A DNA stretch of 64,000 nucleotides from Acidaminococcus fermentans DSM 20731 (lineage in GTDB: Bacteria; Bacillota; Negativicutes; Acidaminococcales; Acidaminococcaceae), in assembly GCF_000025305.1 (NCBI RefSeq), contig NC_013740.1, positions 1,984,001-2,048,000 of the forward strand. The letters are read 5' to 3'. The first letter of the stretch is position 1, and every line of letters begins with the position of its first letter. This document shows positions 53,430 to 61,703 of this stretch, one piece after another. A model generated the notes under the pieces. The model made no database searches, had not been told where the DNA came from, and saw only the letters and a list, made by a program, of their open reading frames with translations. The translations under genes were made by a program, and so were the position numbers.

Positions 53430-54953
53430 TTATTCCTTTTCCATGGTGCCGTTTTTCAGCATTCTTTCATGGAAGGAGAAGGCTTCGGACAGGATGTGGG
53501 GAGTCTGGCTGTTGTGGCAGGCAGCGCAGGCCCGATCGAAATAATCTTTCAGGATGGGCTGGTATCTGGGGCTGGCGATCTGGTCGATGATGATCGGAGC
53601 TCTTTCTTTGGGAGACAGGCCTCTCAGGTCAGCCACGCCCCGTTCGGAAACGATTACATCCACATCGTGTTCGCAGTTGTCGATATGGGAGCAGAAGGGA
53701 ACCACAGAGCTGATCTTCCCGTCTTTCCGTTCGGATTCCGCAAAGAAGATGGACAGATAGCCGTTCCGGGCAAAGTCCCCGCTGCCGCCGATGCCGTTCA
53801 TCAGGTTGGTGCCGTTGATGTGGGAGGAGTTCACGTTGCCGTACAGGTCCACTTCAATGGCCGTGTTCATGGCAATGACACCCAGGCGCCGGACCACTTC
53901 CGGGTTGTTGGAGATTTCCTGGGGCCGGAGGATCAGATGGGATTTGTATTTGTCCAGGTTGCTGTAGAATCTCTTCTGGACTTCCGCAGACATGGTCAGG
54001 GAGGCCCCGGAGGCCACCCGCAGTTTCCCTGCGTCGATCAGGTCGAACATGCCGTCTTGGATGACTTCCGTATATACGGTCAGGTCTTCGAAATCAGAAT
54101 GGACCAGACCGTTGATCACCGCGTTGGCCACGGACCCTACCCCGGACTGGAGGGGCAGCAGGTTCTTGGGCAGCCGGCCGGCTTTCACTTCATTTTTCAG
54201 GAATTCCACCAGGTTCCCGCCCATGGCCCGGGCATCATCGGTGATGGCCGCCAGTTTGCTGGGGGTATCCGGGATGTCGCAGGGAACGATGGCTGCCACC
54301 TTGTCCAGGTCGCAGGGGATGTAGGGAGTGCCGATCCGGTCTTCCGGCCGTTCGATGGGGATGATCTTCCGGTTGGGAGGATCCAGGGGCACATAGCAGT
54401 CATGCATCCCTTCCAGGCCCAGAGGCTGGGTCACGTTCACTTCCACGATGACTTTTTTGGCGCTCTGGACATAGCCGCAGCTGCCGCCCAGGCTGGTGGT
54501 GGGGATGATGCCGATCTTGCCCTTGCCCAGATCCTTGATGGAGCAGGCTTCGATGATGGCCACATCCACGTCCCGGTGATCCGGCAGGAAGCCGAACCGG
54601 GCCATCTGGTTGAAGGTGCTGATATGGGTGTCCAGATACCGGATCTGGCCGTTGTTGATGGCATTCCGGCAGTGCTTGTCCGTCTGATAGGGCATCCGGT
54701 TGCCCACAATTCCGGCTTCCACCATGGCTGTATCGATTTCAGGTCCAGGAAGCACGGTCCAGACATTGACCTTAAAGGGATGTTCTTTCCCTCTGGCTGC
54801 CAGAGCCAGGGGTACTGCCTTGGGATACCCGGAAGGGGTGAATCCGCTCATGCCCAGGTTCATACCGTCTTGAATCATTTCTGCCGCTTTTTCAGCTGTG
54901 GTGATCTTGCTGAGTGCTGCGGCGCAATGGACGCGATCCGTAATATCGATCAT
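53430..54953 (-). CDS. Succinyl-CoA/acetyl-CoA:carboxylate CoA-transferase (Cat1/ScpC type)
   Basis: 507 residues of the acetyl-CoA hydrolase/transferase family, long form. Glu296 in VYTEVIQDGMFDL is the catalytic glutamate and GSGGSGDF-like GIGGSGDFARN binds CoA. It probably exchanges CoA between acetate, succinate, propionate or butyrate during fermentation. Unlike the shorter homologue at 25759-27093, its active site is intact. It has its own promoter. Confidence 0.92.
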   Translation of the reverse strand: MIDITDRVHCAAALSKITTAEKAAEMIQDGMNLGMSGFTPSGYPKAVPLALAARGKEHPFKVNVWTVLPGPEIDTAMVEAGIVGNRMPYQTDKHCRNAINNGQIRYLDTHISTFNQMARFGFLPDHRDVDVAIIEACSIKDLGKGKIGIIPTTSLGGSCGYVQSAKKVIVEVNVTQPLGLEGMHDCYVPLDPPNRKIIPIERPEDRIGTPYIPCDLDKVAAIVPCDIPDTPSKLAAITDDARAMGGNLVEFLKNEVKAGRLPKNLLPLQSGVGSVANAVINGLVHSDFEDLTVYTEVIQDGMFDLIDAGKLRVASGASLTMSAEVQKRFYSNLDKYKSHLILRPQEISNNPEVVRRLGVIAMNTAIEVDLYGNVNSSHINGTNLMNGIGGSGDFARNGYLSIFFAESERKDGKISSVVPFCSHIDNCEHDVDVIVSERGVADLRGLSPKERAPIIIDQIASPRYQPILKDYFDRACAACHNSQTPHILSEAFSFHERMLKNGTMEKE

Positions 54954-55129: not shown

Positions 55130-56431
55130 CTATCTGTCTTTTTCTCCTGTTTCCTGTTTCTTTTGCAGGAAGATACACCCCTCTTTCTTTCCGTAGCCCC
55201 GTACCACGTCTTCCGCAAAGGCATGGCAGGTGGGGGCCCCGCAGGCGCCGCAGTCCAGCTGGGGGAATTCCTTTTCCAGTTCCTTCAGCCGGGCCATCTT
55301 TTCCAGGGCTTCTCCGAAATCCCGGGCAAGGGGCGGGTGGGGCCGGGGTTCCAGGGGCTTGATGTAGCGCCAGGAATCCGGGAAATCCTCGATGATCCGG
55401 CGGCGCTGCATGGCACTTTTCCGGTCCCCATCCTCCCGGCTCCGGCGCCGTTCCACCCGTACCCGCAGGTTCTTGGCCGCCACGTACTTGTTCACCGCCA
55501 CACAGGGACCGCCGATGCAGCCGCCGGCACAGCTGTAGCAGCAGGCATAGCGCACATCGTTCAGTTTGGCCATGCTGATCTGTTCCAGCAGCTCATCCAC
55601 TTCCTCCGGCCCCTGGGCCGCCAGGGCATTGGTGACGCCGGTGGACTCCAGCTCTCCCTGCCAGCTGCCCCAGCTCAGGCTGTAGGAAGACCCCAGGGTG
55701 GCCTCCGGCACTTCATACCGGGTTTCCTGCACATGCTTGATGGCCTGGGTCAAAGGACCGTAGATGGAGGCGATGGTAAAGGACCCGGTCACCGCCGTAT
55801 GGGCCACATCCACGGACTGGTGGATATTGGTGCCCTTGGCGGGACAGGGGGAAATGAACCAGATGCCCACCTGTTCCGGGGCCAGCTGAAGCCGTTTCGT
55901 GGTTTCCCGCCGGGTGTAGATGGCCGCCGCTTCCGCCGGGGCCAGGATGGGCAGCACCTGCTTCACCAGTTCCGGGTACTTGGTCTGGATCAGCCGGAGC
56001 ACCGCCGGGCAGGCGGAGGAAATCAGCGGGAATGGCCCCTTGTAATGGGCGATGTACCGTTCCATCTCGTCACTGATGTAATCCCCGGCCAGGGCCACAT
56101 CGAACACCGTGTCGAATCCCAGTTCCCGGAGTCCCTCCCAGATCACGGAAGCAGCGATGTTCCCGTCGAACTGGGCATAAAAGGAAGGAGTGGCCAGGGC
56201 AATGTTCACTTTGTACTTCTTCAGTTCCGTCAGTGGATCCGCCCAGCCTTCCATGGCCCGGGTGGGACAGCAGCGGATGCATTCCCCGCAGTCGATGCAC
56301 CGGTCGGACAGGATCACCGCCTTCCCGTTCCGCACCCGGATGGCCTGGACCAGACAATCCTTCACGCAGATCAGGCAGCCGGTACAGTGCCGGGTATTGA
56401 CTCTGACAGAATTGAGATAGGCTTCACTCAC
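55130..56431 (-). CDS. Sensory-type [FeFe]-hydrogenase (HydS-like)
   Basis: 433 residues. Two N-terminal 4Fe-4S motifs (cysteines 16, 19, 22, 26 and 45, 48, 51, 54) precede the H-cluster domain: SSACP (Cys141), SPCPAK (Cys196) and CAGGCIGGPC (Cys301, Cys305). The usual proton-relay cysteine before Cys141 is Ala140, as in the sensory enzyme of Thermotoga. A C-terminal CGACGAPTC four-cysteine domain follows. It is probably a slow H2 or redox sensor rather than a bulk hydrogenase. It ends a four-gene unit. Confidence 0.88.
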   Translation of the reverse strand: MSEAYLNSVRVNTRHCTGCLICVKDCLVQAIRVRNGKAVILSDRCIDCGECIRCCPTRAMEGWADPLTELKKYKVNIALATPSFYAQFDGNIAASVIWEGLRELGFDTVFDVALAGDYISDEMERYIAHYKGPFPLISSACPAVLRLIQTKYPELVKQVLPILAPAEAAAIYTRRETTKRLQLAPEQVGIWFISPCPAKGTNIHQSVDVAHTAVTGSFTIASIYGPLTQAIKHVQETRYEVPEATLGSSYSLSWGSWQGELESTGVTNALAAQGPEEVDELLEQISMAKLNDVRYACCYSCAGGCIGGPCVAVNKYVAAKNLRVRVERRRSREDGDRKSAMQRRRIIEDFPDSWRYIKPLEPRPHPPLARDFGEALEKMARLKELEKEFPQLDCGACGAPTCHAFAEDVVRGYGKKEGCIFLQKKQETGEKDR

Positions 56432-56460
56432 CGGTTCTCACCTGCTTTTCCCTCTCTGTC

Positions 56461-56877
56461 TCAGTGGGCCAGCCGGAACACCAGGGTCACAGTGGTGCCC
56501 TTTCCCACCTGGGTATCGATTTTCATGTCATCGGACACTTTCTTCATGTTGGGCAGCCCCATGCCGGCGCCGAACCCCATGGCCCGGATCCTGGCAGAAG
56601 CGGTGGACCACCCTTCCTGCATGGCTTTTTCCACATCCGGGATGCCGGGTCCATGGTCCTCTATGGAAATGGTGACCTTCTCCGGATCCAGCCGGGCCCG
56701 GATGGTGCCCCCGCCCCCATGGATCAGGCAGTTCATTTCCCCTTCATAAGTACCGATGGCAATCCGCCGGATCAGTTCCGGGGCCAGGCCCAGCTGCTTC
56801 AGCAGCCCCTTCAGAGAGGTGGATGCCGCCCCGGCCCGTTCGAAGTCATCCGGAATGACCGTATAGACCTCTTCCAT
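56461..56877 (-). CDS. Anti-sigma-factor-like histidine kinase ATPase
   Basis: 138 residues forming one HATPase domain: N box near EGEMNCLIHG, G1 box DHGPGIPD and G2 box GFGAGMGLPNM. Such small ATPases phosphorylate anti-sigma antagonists or act as single-domain kinases. It lies six bases after the DRTGG gene and 29 before the hydrogenase gene, a common grouping in clostridia. Its partner is unknown. Confidence 0.88.
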   Translation of the reverse strand: MEEVYTVIPDDFERAGAASTSLKGLLKQLGLAPELIRRIAIGTYEGEMNCLIHGGGGTIRARLDPEKVTISIEDHGPGIPDVEKAMQEGWSTASARIRAMGFGAGMGLPNMKKVSDDMKIDTQVGKGTTVTLVFRLAH

Positions 56878-56883
56878 ACCGGC

Positions 56884-57246
56884 CTACTTCCGGTCCTTGT
56901 GGGAACAGCCCCGGATCCCCAGTCCATAAAGCCGGCCACAGGCTTCGAACATGGTATACCTTGTGTAGAGCACCGGGATTCCCTTGTCCCGGGCCGCCAG
57001 CAGCACTTCCTGTTCCGGATGCTTGTCCCGGACAAAGATCAGGGCTGCCGCGTCGCTCACATCGGCAGTACGCACCACCTGGATGTTCAGGAGCCCGGTA
57101 AGCAGGACGAAATCCTCCTTAGCATAGGCCAGCACATCACTCATCATGTCACTGCCGCAGGCCTGGTTCACGGTCCGTCCCAGGGATTCCTGTCCGGAAA
57201 CCACCTGGGCTTCCAGAACTTCCGCCACTTTTTTCAATGTTACCAT
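56884..57246 (-). CDS. DRTGG-domain protein
   Basis: 120 residues from the ATG at 57246 behind AAGGAGG. The fold begins TLKKVAEVLEAQVVSGQESLG and includes GSDMMSDVLAYA, typical of the DRTGG domain that accompanies sensory [FeFe]-hydrogenases. It may bind a small ligand; function unknown. Confidence 0.82.
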   Translation of the reverse strand: MVTLKKVAEVLEAQVVSGQESLGRTVNQACGSDMMSDVLAYAKEDFVLLTGLLNIQVVRTADVSDAAALIFVRDKHPEQEVLLAARDKGIPVLYTRYTMFEACGRLYGLGIRGCSHKDRK

Positions 57247-57266: not shown

Positions 57267-60200
57267 TCAAAACAACGCTTCCATCTGTTTCCGTTCCCAG
57301 GTATCCCGGTAAGGATCCAGCACCTGGAGGGCCCGGGTGGCATAGGCGCCCACCGTCCCCTCATAATGCCCGGCGATCCCGCTTTCCGGATAATCCTTCT
57401 TCAGGAGGGCGATGGCCATGTACACATAGCCCGCCTCCCGGGGATTGTTCATGTTCCCCAGCTTGTGGAGGGCATCATCCAGGAAACGGACGGCCTCCTT
57501 CTCCTTTCCTTCCCGCATGGACAGCAGGGCCAGATAGGATTCCACAATGGGATGGCGCCAATAGAACACATACCGGGGAAACAGCTCATAGGCCTGGAGA
57601 AAATACTTCCTGGCCCGGGCGAACTGACCCATATTGTAGCAGGTGACCCCCGCATTGCAGGAAAAGACCACCCAGGAGCTGTAGGCTTCCTGATTTTTTG
57701 CATACTCCAGGGCTTTGTCGTAATAGTCCAATGCCTCCTGGAATTTCCCTTCTCCCCGGCGGATCTCCCCCAGGTAATTGTAGGCTCCGGCAATGTTCAG
57801 GGCATACCGGCGCTGGACATTCTGGGTCACCATGAAGGTGGAAATGGATTCCCTCAGCAGCCGTTCCGCTTCCGGGAAATTCCCCTGCATGATCATGTTG
57901 AGACCCTTGAGCCGGAGCAGGATGCCCATTTCCTTGTGGTAATTGCACTCGTCCGCCAGGTTCAGGGCCACTTCCAGATAGTTCTTCATTTCTTCCGTGT
58001 TGCCGATCTGGATGTCGTAATAGATCATCTGCTTGTAGCCCATAAGCATGTAGTCCCGGTTGTGGACTTCCGCCGCCTGTTCGATCAGGCTCAGGATGTT
58101 CCGGACGCCCTTTTCGTATTCCCCCACCCGGATGTAGTGCCGGCCCATCAGATGGAGATAGTTCATCTCCAGGTCCCGGACTTCCGGGGTTTCCCCGCAG
58201 GTCCGCCGGATGGTGTGCATCATCTCGTCCACTTCCGCCAGGAACTGCCCCAGGTTGGATTCGATGTACCGGCTCCGGTCCTCATCCGGCACGATGTCCG
58301 CACTGCTGAGCACCGGGAACAGCTCGTTGCTGAAATTCAGGTAATACATGAGGATCTTCAGCTTGTACCGGCCCATGTTCACCAGTTCCCCGGCCTCCTG
58401 GTAGTGGTATTCCAGGTGATGGTACAGCCGGATGTCCTGAGGAGAATGGGTCAGCCGCTTTTCCCAGAGCCCGGCAATGTAGCTGTGGAGGATTTTCTGC
58501 TTTTCCTGGGAAATCTGCTGGTGGATGTATTCCTTCAGCTTCTGCTGGACGATTTCATAGATCACCTCCGGCTGCTGGGGCACCGGCCGGATGAAGTTGT
58601 TCTTCCGGAGCACCTCCAGGTTTTCCAGGGCCTGGAGACTGTTCATATGCATGTATTCCGAGATCATGGCCAGGGGCGCCCCGTCATAGAACAGGGAAAT
58701 GAAATCCAGGATCTTCTGCTGGTCGTCAGTCAGGGCGAAACAGTTGGATTTGAAGATGTTCCGCATGTTTTCCGTCAGATTGTCCAGACTGCCGGTGGTC
58801 TGGAGAGCCTTCAGGCATTCCCGGAGCAGGAACAGGTTCCCTTCCGATTCTTCCAGCAGCCGGTCCACCAGGTGCTCGTCCACGGTCACTGGCAGATCCA
58901 GATCCTGGGCAAAGAGCCGGATGGTTTCCCGGTCCAGAGGTGCCAGATCCAGCAGCCGGAGCTTGTGGTACATGGCCAGGGAAGTTTCGAACTTCTGGTA
59001 ATTTTTTTCCTGGAAAGGCTGGGCCGTCAGCAGGAACAGGAACCGGGAGGATTTCTGGTGGAGGATCAGGCTGCTGAGCAGGGACAGGCTCAGGGGGTCC
59101 ATCCACTGGATGTCCTCAAAGATGAACAGCAGCTTTCGTTTCTCTGACACGGTTTCCATGGCCGTGTACAGGGTGTGGAAAATGGCGTCGAACTTGAGCA
59201 GATCCTTGATCTCCGCCAGGCCCGCTTCCCGGTCCCCGCTCATGTCCATCTGGGGAAACAGTTCAAACAGCCGTCCGGGATCCATATTGGGCACAGAGAT
59301 CTTTTCCCGGCGGATCAGGTTCCCCAGCCCTTCCACGATCCCGGTCCAGGGCCGGAGCAGGATGTTCTGTTCCGGCTTGAAACAGTTGGTCTGGATCACC
59401 GCCACTTCCGGAGGCAGTTCCTCCACCAGGGCATCCTTCAGGATGGTCTTGCCGCTGCCCGCTTCCCCCCGGATCAGCAGGGTCTGGCTGCCGGACCCTG
59501 GAGGAACCCTTCCATATGCCGGTTCACCTGCTGAAGTTCCTTTTCCCGGCCGGTCAGGGTTTCCGGCTGCCGGAGGCGGATTCCCTGCTCCTGTTTCTCC
59601 AGCTTCTCCTGATGGAGGGTCCGTTTCATCAATTCTTCGATTTCCGGCGGTACATTGCTCTGGAGTTCTTCCCGAAACAGCTTCTTCATTTCTTCGTACA
59701 GGTCCACCGCCTGTTTCATGTTCCCCTGTTCGCAGTAGGTCCGGAGCAGCAGGGTATAGATGGATTCATCATAGGGATCATGGGCGATGAGCATCCGCCC
59801 GTACCGGGTTACCTTGGCCTGGTTCCGGACCGCCACCGCCTCCTTCAGTTTCTGGAGCAGGGCATCCATGTAAAGGGCTTCCAGCCGGTCCCGTTCCGTC
59901 AGATACCAGCTTTCGTATTCCGCCGCGTCCTTGATGAAGAATCCCTGGAGGAAGGCCCCCTGGTACAGATCCAGATTCCGTCCCGGATCCTCCTCAAAAG
60001 CCCGGGCATCCACCTCCGTCCGGATGGCCGGATTCACCTTGATGATGGCTTTCCGGGGAGAGATGAACACATCCGGCCCCAGGATCTTCTTGGTTTCGTA
60101 AATGGCATTCCGGAGATTCTTCCGGGCAATGGCATCGGGCTTGTCCGCCCACAGTACCCCGCTCAGTTCATCCCGCATCACTGTGCCTTTGACCAGCAGG

Positions 60201-60304
60201 TAGTACACCAGGGCATTGACTTTATTATAGGGAAAGAAGATTTCCTTTCCGTCCTTCTTGATAACCGGAGCGCCCAACAGCCGCGCTTGGATCAGACTCG
60301 TCAT
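57267..60304 (-). pseudogene. BTAD/AAA-type transcriptional regulator split by a frameshift
   Basis: Two frames join at about 59493-59500. The upstream part (59474-60304) has a winged-helix DNA-binding domain and a BTAD helical domain, and stops early after GFLQGPAARPC. The downstream frame continues with SGSQTLLIRGEAGSGKT, a Walker A loop, then a large ATPase domain and a TPR-like C-terminal half to 57267. Adding one base restores a single protein of about 1012 residues. The ATG at 60304 follows GAGGTG. It heads the hydrogenase unit and probably controls it. This is either a real mutation or a sequencing error. Confidence 0.8.
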
Positions 60305-60461: not shown

Positions 60462-61703
60462 TTACCGGACCACAACTTTTCCTTTTTTGATGACTGTTTC
60501 CACAATATTGATTCCCGTATGGTAGGGCAGGAATTTGTAGGAAGGATACTGGAGGATCACCAGGTCCGCCTGTTTCCCCGGCTCCAGGGACCCGATCCGG
60601 TCCGCCCGGTCCAGAGCCGCCGCCCCGTTCAGGGTCAGGGCTGTGATGGCTTCTTCCGCGGTCATCTTCATATAGATCACCGCCAGGCCGATCATCAGCG
60701 GCACCGAGAAGGTGAACCCGCTGCCCGGGTTGAAGTCCGTGGCCAGAGCCACGGCACAGCCGGCGTCGATCATTTCCCGTGCCCGGGCGAATGGTTCCTT
60801 CAGACAGAACGCCGTGGTGGGCAGCAGGGTGGATACCACCCCATTGTCCGCCATGGCCCGAATTCCTTCGTCGGAGGCATGGAGCAGATGGTCCGCACTG
60901 GTGGCATGGAGTTCTCCCGCCAGTTCCGCACCGCCCAGGCTGACGATTTCGTCAGCGTGGATCTTCAGCTTGAAGCCCATCTTCCGGGCTTCCGTCAGCA
61001 GGTGACGGCTCTGTTCGATGGAGAATACCCCTTTTTCACAGAACACATCGCAGAATTCCGCCAGGTGTTTTTCCGCCACTTCCGGCATTACATCCTTCAG
61101 CAGGAATTCGATGAAGTCGTCTCCCCGGTCCTTGTATTCCGGCGGTACCGCATGGGCTCCCAGGAAAGTGGAAACCAGTTCGATGGGCTGCTTTTCATTC
61201 AGGTCCCGGACCACTTCCATCTGTTTGATTTCCGTGTCGTGGTCCTGGCCATAGCCGCTTTTGGCTTCTACAGTGGTGACCCCCATGGCCAGCATTTTCT
61301 TCAGGAAGTCCATGCTGTGGTCCACCAGCTCTTCCCGGCTGGCTTCCCGGGTGGCCTTCATGGTATTCAGGATGCCCCCGCCCCGTTCCATGATTTCCAT
61401 ATAGCTCATGCCGCCCATCCGCCAGAGGAATTCATCGGGCCGGTAGCCCCCGAATACCAGATGGGTGTGGGAATCCACAAAACCCGGCAGCACCGCCTTG
61501 CCGGAGGCATCGATCTGTTTGTCCGCCGGTACCAGTTTTTCCCAGTCCGGCTGGTTCCCGATGCTGCGGATCTTTCCGTTTTCAATCAGGATGGACTGGT
61601 TCTCATAGATTTTCAGCTGTTTCATTTCCCGGCCGTGCCGGGCGCTTTTCCCTTCCGGGGTTACGATCTGGGCCGCATTTTTGATCAGCAGTCTGTCAAC
61701 CAT
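60462..61703 (-). CDS. hutI: Imidazolonepropionase
   Basis: 413 residues of the amidohydrolase superfamily. VDSHTHLVFGGYRPDEF near 77 holds the metal-binding HxH and the HutI-specific GGYR; EAKSGYG near 145 and HADEI near 248 complete the site, and ATDFNPGS holds the late Asp. It hydrolyses 4-imidazolone-5-propionate to N-formiminoglutamate, third step of histidine breakdown. GGAGGAA precedes the ATG and hutU is just upstream. Confidence 0.96.
   Translation of the reverse strand: MVDRLLIKNAAQIVTPEGKSARHGREMKQLKIYENQSILIENGKIRSIGNQPDWEKLVPADKQIDASGKAVLPGFVDSHTHLVFGGYRPDEFLWRMGGMSYMEIMERGGGILNTMKATREASREELVDHSMDFLKKMLAMGVTTVEAKSGYGQDHDTEIKQMEVVRDLNEKQPIELVSTFLGAHAVPPEYKDRGDDFIEFLLKDVMPEVAEKHLAEFCDVFCEKGVFSIEQSRHLLTEARKMGFKLKIHADEIVSLGGAELAGELHATSADHLLHASDEGIRAMADNGVVSTLLPTTAFCLKEPFARAREMIDAGCAVALATDFNPGSGFTFSVPLMIGLAVIYMKMTAEEAITALTLNGAAALDRADRIGSLEPGKQADLVILQYPSYKFLPYHTGINIVETVIKKGKVVVR

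Follow-up and report, generated by a model that had tools for sequence, protein, structure and literature searches.

A probable orphaned group D [FeFe]-hydrogenase sensor beside a BTAD-type regulator in the genus Acidaminococcus

Introduction

The gut bacterium Acidaminococcus fermentans encodes a [FeFe]-hydrogenase-like protein, here called HydS, whose gene lies beside those of a DRTGG-domain protein, an ATPase and a large regulator, raising the question of what this protein senses or catalyses and to which output it may be coupled. The initial annotation of the window, i.e., the 64,000-nucleotide stretch of A. fermentans DNA analysed here, took an alanine preceding the first H-cluster ligand as a mark of a slow, sensory hydrogenase and proposed that its signal passes through the ATPase to transcription. 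Group D hydrogenases have been proposed in the literature to act as sensors (PMC8163306, PMC13104023), and their genes are normally located directly upstream of those of the bifurcating HydABC, as noted for Thermoanaerobacter (PMC8163306, PMC3608648).

Group placement and fold of HydS

HydS is a protein of 433 amino acids with a GTG start, encoded on the minus strand at window positions 55130..56431 and described as a group D (M2e) [FeFe]-hydrogenase-like protein from its open reading frame, Pfam matches, alignment, phylogeny and structural model. Pfam places a 4Fe-4S dicluster domain at the N-terminus, Fe_hyd_lg_C at residues 77-309 (E=7.9e-25) and the FeS domain PF04060 at residues 390-421 (E=1.7e-11), with no match to a PAS domain. 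The N-terminus holds two [4Fe-4S] motifs (C16,19,22,26 and C45,48,51,55), and the C-terminal motif is exactly Cx2Cx4Cx16C (C394,397,402,419), the signature of M2e/group D (PMC6984386). The four H-cluster ligands (C141, C196, C301 and C305) and Ala140 before the first of them are found at exactly the positions first annotated, and in alignment with other hydrogenases they fall on the motifs L1, L2 and L3. The AlphaFold model of HydS (pLDDT 93, pTM 0.91) matches DdH, CbA5H and TmHydA with Z of 30-33 and CpI with Z of about 30 in VIA-align; these PDB structures cover the C-terminal FeS domain poorly, the model range ending near 367-404. A chance open reading frame was ruled out by the Pfam matches, the residue conservation and the confident model, and a scan of IMG/VR found no relatives of HydS there.

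In a maximum-likelihood tree of 74 proteins, HydS falls within the group D clade with 100/100 support, and a branch with 100/100 support separates the 39 group D rows from groups A, B and C, the group labels being taken from architecture, NCBIfam models and the Thermoanaerobacter wiegelii relative of TamHydS rather than from named references for every group. T. wiegelii HydS and proteins of the same architecture share the clade of HydS, and the Acidaminococcus sequences form a 100/100 clade of their own on a long stem (0.46). The tree rules out a catalytic group A enzyme as the identity of HydS, and the phylogenetic check suggested with the initial annotation thus came out in favour of group D. 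All architectural features of group D are present, namely the two N-terminal [4Fe-4S] motifs, the H-domain and the C-terminal motif with no PAS domain, and HydS keeps the H-cluster cysteines and lacks the group A proton-relay cysteine.

By alignment, the position of that relay cysteine (CpI C299; TamHydS A137; PMC11803613) is occupied by Ala140 (codon at 56012..56014, minus strand). Among the 108 other group D proteins compared, which are the closest relatives and not the whole of group D, 82 have Ala, 16 have Thr and 4 have Ser just ahead of the L1 cysteine. Alanine is therefore usual in group D and not special to A. fermentans HydS, so that Ala140 follows a group rule already described (PMC8163306, PMC11803613), and the sensory reading becomes the hypothesis published for the entire group. 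As a mark of sensory function, Ala140 agrees with membership of the putatively sensory group D but is its norm. An order-level relative (L052, G039) encodes a group D HydS in which His precedes the L1 cysteine, the conserved Lys of L2 is Met and the equivalent of TamHydS E252 is Ser, and this protein may be degenerate given these changes, although HydABC is kept there.

HydS resembles TamHydS of Thermoanaerobacter mathranii in its domain order, both N-terminal cluster motifs, the L1 Ala, the E252 equivalent, the C-terminal Cx2Cx4Cx16C motif and the flanking histidine-kinase-like ATPase, and it is 38% identical to the T. wiegelii protein (L131), the closest sequence used for TamHydS. The group C sensory hydrogenases (TmHydS, R. 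albus HydS and HfsB) are likewise putative sensors with a C-terminal [4Fe-4S] motif and no group A proton pathway, yet they form a separate clade and carry PAS or SpoIIE domains, both lacking in HydS, PAS being matched in the group C relatives.

Operon and partner proteins

On the minus strand, the genes for the BTAD regulator (60304-57267), the DRTGG protein (57246-56884), the ATPase (56877-56461) and HydS follow one another with gaps of 6-29 bp and apparently form one operon. The company initially described for HydS was borne out, and the regulator could be specified as a BTAD, AAA and TPR protein split by a frameshift. Pfam detects these three domains, and an N-terminal winged helix was read by eye. 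The BTAD part (59474..60304, minus strand) ends at the frameshift near 59490, downstream of which the AAA part, with the P-loop GEAGSGKT, and the TPR part follow (57267..59498, minus strand). The DRTGG-domain protein has 120 amino acids by its Pfam-matched frame; no literature link between such a protein and hydrogenase was found, the sole match holding each word once.

Upstream of the regulator gene, synteny places hutI (60462..61703, minus strand), and a G+C-rich stem followed by a T-run was read by eye between the two at about 60455-60412; in the promoter and terminator scan, terminator counts were below the shuffled expectation, and its calls were set aside. Downstream of HydS lie a CoA-transferase gene (53430..54953, minus strand) and mmd-type decarboxylase genes. 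The CoA-transferase gene is located between HydS and mmdA in five genomes of the genus and is absent from that place in four (G001, G002, G004 and G006).

The ATPase, a SpoIIAB-like HATPase_c_2 protein of 138 amino acids (PF13581, 50.8 bits), has intact N-box and G boxes by motif check and thus shares its fold family and ATP-binding motifs with the SpoIIAB/RsbW anti-sigma kinases, but it scores 59 bits against a cut-off of 135 bits for SpoIIAB itself. A search of the complete A. fermentans genome for STAS-domain proteins (PF01740) gave no match, the same search being positive in 10 of 14 controls, and the only SpoIIE-type phosphatase is one weak candidate. Since no STAS protein is found, classic anti-sigma partner switching is unlikely, and it is doubtful that the ATPase relays the signal as a SpoIIAB-like anti-sigma factor would, the route first proposed.

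Loss of the HydABC block across the genus

The genus was sampled as nine Acidaminococcus genomes, one per species. All nine carry BTAD-DRTGG-ATPase-HydS followed by the CoA-transferase gene and/or mmdA, and all nine lack the DRTGG2-PHP-HydC-HATPase-Fdx-HydB-HydA block between HydS and these downstream genes. The ancestral-type locus, seen in order- and class-level relatives and in most other family members, instead continues from DRTGG-ATPase-HydS into DRTGG2, PHP, NuoE/HydC, a second HATPase, a 2Fe-2S ferredoxin, NuoF/HydB, HydA and often Rex before reaching the CoA-transferase, which in A. fermentans bounds the lost block on the right. The same DRTGG-ATPase-HydS genes lie directly upstream of bifurcating HydABC loci in Negativicutes and Clostridia. 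Across 80 named bacterial loci, DRTGG occurs in 73, DRTGG2 in 73 and PHP in 70, and over half have HydB and HydA, with several contigs breaking off early.

Genome-wide checks, made as family searches, left no HydB in the nine Acidaminococcus genomes. The sole PF01512 protein in each is of the shorter kind of match (454-500 aa; a 455-aa open frame in A. fermentans) and is read from its size as a putative RnfC. In the family outside the genus, HydS and HydB were both present in 18 cases, both absent in eight and discordant in one each way (Fisher p=2.5e-5, in a count that ignores relatedness). As the two nearly always occur together there, the retention of HydS after the loss of HydABC is an exception, and one that spans the genus. 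A Phascolarctobacterium-like genome (G034) has HydS-DRTGG2 leading directly to the CoA-transferase and no PF01512 protein, and seems to have undergone the loss independently or in part, i.e., to be in an intermediate state; the arrangement at L092 is the same and may come from the same organism.

Synteny before and after the event shows, by comparison of gene order, that a HydABC-type partner was most probably lost at the base of Acidaminococcus, leaving HydS orphaned and the DRTGG2-to-HydA block gone. The initial annotation correctly reported that no NuoE/NuoF-type subunits are encoded near HydS, but their absence is not typical of such sensors and reflects the loss of the block in this genus.

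Residue losses in Acidaminococcus HydS

TamHydS positions were mapped through T. wiegelii HydS in a MAFFT alignment. The position of TamHydS E289 (PMC10407848), which is Cys297 in A. fermentans (codon at 55541..55543, minus strand), holds Cys in six genomes of the genus, Ser in two, Ala in one and Glu in none. Glu occupies it in 108/108 group D proteins compared outside Acidaminococcus and in 28/28 of the group A-C proteins scored, namely those with an L3 motif found, in agreement with a published remark that this glutamate is common to the groups (PMC10407848). This genus-specific loss of a family-wide glutamate was missed in the initial annotation, as was the regulator frameshift. Further losses set HydS apart from TamHydS: the D265 equivalent is Q273 in A. 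fermentans and Gln or Ser in the genus, with Asp kept in 0/9, the S249 equivalent is Trp or a charged residue, and Leu replaces Pro after the fourth N-terminal cysteine, C26, in 9/9. Moreover, the L291 equivalent is Tyr in 9/9, residue 310 is Cys (6/9) or Ser instead of Leu, and Cys298 is found throughout the genus.

Other positions are retained. The E252 equivalent, the proposed group D proton relay, is E260 and invariant in 9/9; its loss, suspected from a hand alignment, was rejected because MAFFT aligns the E of 'GE' without gaps. Of the TamHydS-type proton-transfer pathway, which is conserved in group D though not used here to define the group, HydS thus keeps E252 but neither E289 nor D265. 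K199 and all H-cluster cysteines are invariant in the genus, and all 16 cofactor cysteines are kept in the nine proteins.

In TamHydS, H2 oxidation falls to 3% or less in E289 variants, and E289A keeps 30% of H2 evolution (PMC10407848). If these effects hold here, the H2 turnover of HydS should be very slow, and with the equivalents of E289, D265 and S249 lost, H2 oxidation should slow further, so that HydS may report redox state more than it turns over H2. Going one step further, HydS could have lost its response to H2 and work as a redox or thiol sensor, keeping the H-cluster or its [4Fe-4S] part and responding to redox potential or oxidants. This reading builds on the change of Glu to Cys, Ser or Ala and on the extra cysteines near L3 (C297, C298 and C310), and the genus-wide Tyr and Leu replacements and the unequal effect of E289A on the two directions of catalysis would also fit it. 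The invariance of E260, K199 and the H-cluster cysteines speaks against it, as does Cys at 298 in 35 of the 108 relatives, and we regard it as rather unlikely.

Maintenance of the module and state of the regulator

Between A. fermentans and its relatives, dN/dS is 0.05-0.17 for the DRTGG gene, 0.10-0.36 for the ATPase and 0.06-0.27 for HydS, all rough ratios given the large dS in some pairs. The three genes evolve faster than those of neighbouring enzymes, still with ratios well under 1, and purifying selection on them is shown at the level of sequence comparison.

The regulator is one open frame of about 1011-1031 codons in seven of the nine genomes. In A. fermentans, a one-base deletion relative to its relatives (window 59474-59500) splits the BTAD part from the P-loop, and a different one-base change is found in G007 (L055). 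With its regulator frameshifted, A. fermentans may have a broken output, or the calls may be sequencing errors; Sanger and 454 reads were combined to finish this genome (PMC3035267). The regulator and DRTGG genes are about 1.8 kb apart in G008.

The frameshifts in 2/9 genomes, together with the lost partners, the lost conserved residues and the long stem branch, could suggest that HydS is a decaying relic of the former HydABC locus. Set against this are a full-length HydS in 9/9 genomes with its cofactor cysteines kept, the low dN/dS and an intact regulator in the other seven, which make decay an improbable explanation.

Other hydrogenase and maturase genes

The A. fermentans genome encodes HydE, HydF and HydG. 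It also has one HydA of group A, and two more PF02906 proteins whose nearest model is that of group B1. The group A HydA (G000:C1:2156600-2160158, L035) adjoins a gene in which a NuoF iron-sulfur domain is fused to a GltD-like flavoprotein, and its locus has a divergent Rrf2 regulator and neither HydB nor HydC. A 418-aa PF02906 protein (G000:C1:2110867-2111577, minus strand, L037) has a long branch, with group B as its nearest group and a score under the cut-off of the B1 model, and may be an unusual group B form. A HydE-type maturase gene (G000:C1:2048332-2049372, minus strand, L178; 302 bits, over the cut-off) is located upstream of hutU, about 330 bp beyond the right end of the window, and a second HydE-type gene at 1566642. 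The former was considered as part of a conserved cluster and dismissed, being absent from the flanks examined in other members of the genus.

With its H-cluster ligands kept, and H2 being a main product of A. fermentans (PMC3035267), HydS might be thought a slow catalytic hydrogenase serving metabolism in place of the lost HydABC. The genome nevertheless has the group A HydA and the two further PF02906 proteins, group D enzymes are of very low activity (PMC6984386), the neighbours of HydS are regulatory, and residues of both the group A and the group D proton paths are missing. A metabolic role is thus very improbable indeed.

Discussion

On balance, HydS is probably a group D sensory hydrogenase of the TamHydS type that was orphaned and rewired as an H2 or redox sensor with weakened H2 chemistry, a reading that we hold with some, though not strong, confidence. 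The protein would descend from a DRTGG-ATPase-HydS-DRTGG2-PHP-HydABC locus of the standard kind, and its orphaning would date to the base of Acidaminococcus. HydS presumably carries an H-cluster made by HydEFG, whose redox state, set by H2 or reduced ferredoxin, may change the shape of HydS. This change could be passed to the SpoIIAB-like ATPase and the DRTGG protein and from these to the BTAD regulator, and the latter might adjust transcription of genes for H2 and electron disposal or of nearby fermentation genes; the adjacent CoA-transferase and mmd genes and the group A hydrogenase elsewhere are candidate targets. In TamHydS, the C-terminal cluster was found not to be reduced by H2 (PMC13104023), which counts against this signal path. 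More tentatively, and nearer to a possibility than to an expectation, HydS may have been rewired into a HydABC-independent BTAD/AAA/TPR signalling operon in which, deprived of the glutamate of groups A-D, it senses redox state or the binding of H2 but does not turn H2 over normally.

What is unusual about HydS is thus not Ala140 but a genus-wide combination of HydABC loss, a BTAD regulator upstream and the loss of the conserved glutamate; TamHydS, by comparison, has HydABC downstream and no such regulator. As group D genes are so often linked to HydABC, sensing by their products is hard to separate from enzyme function. Acidaminococcus provides a natural experiment in this respect: in all nine genomes the sensor module stands alone, joined to a candidate transcription factor, and the HydS proteins of the genus carry natural replacements at a residue already mutated in TamHydS. 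The module makes the output side of the putative signal path directly testable.
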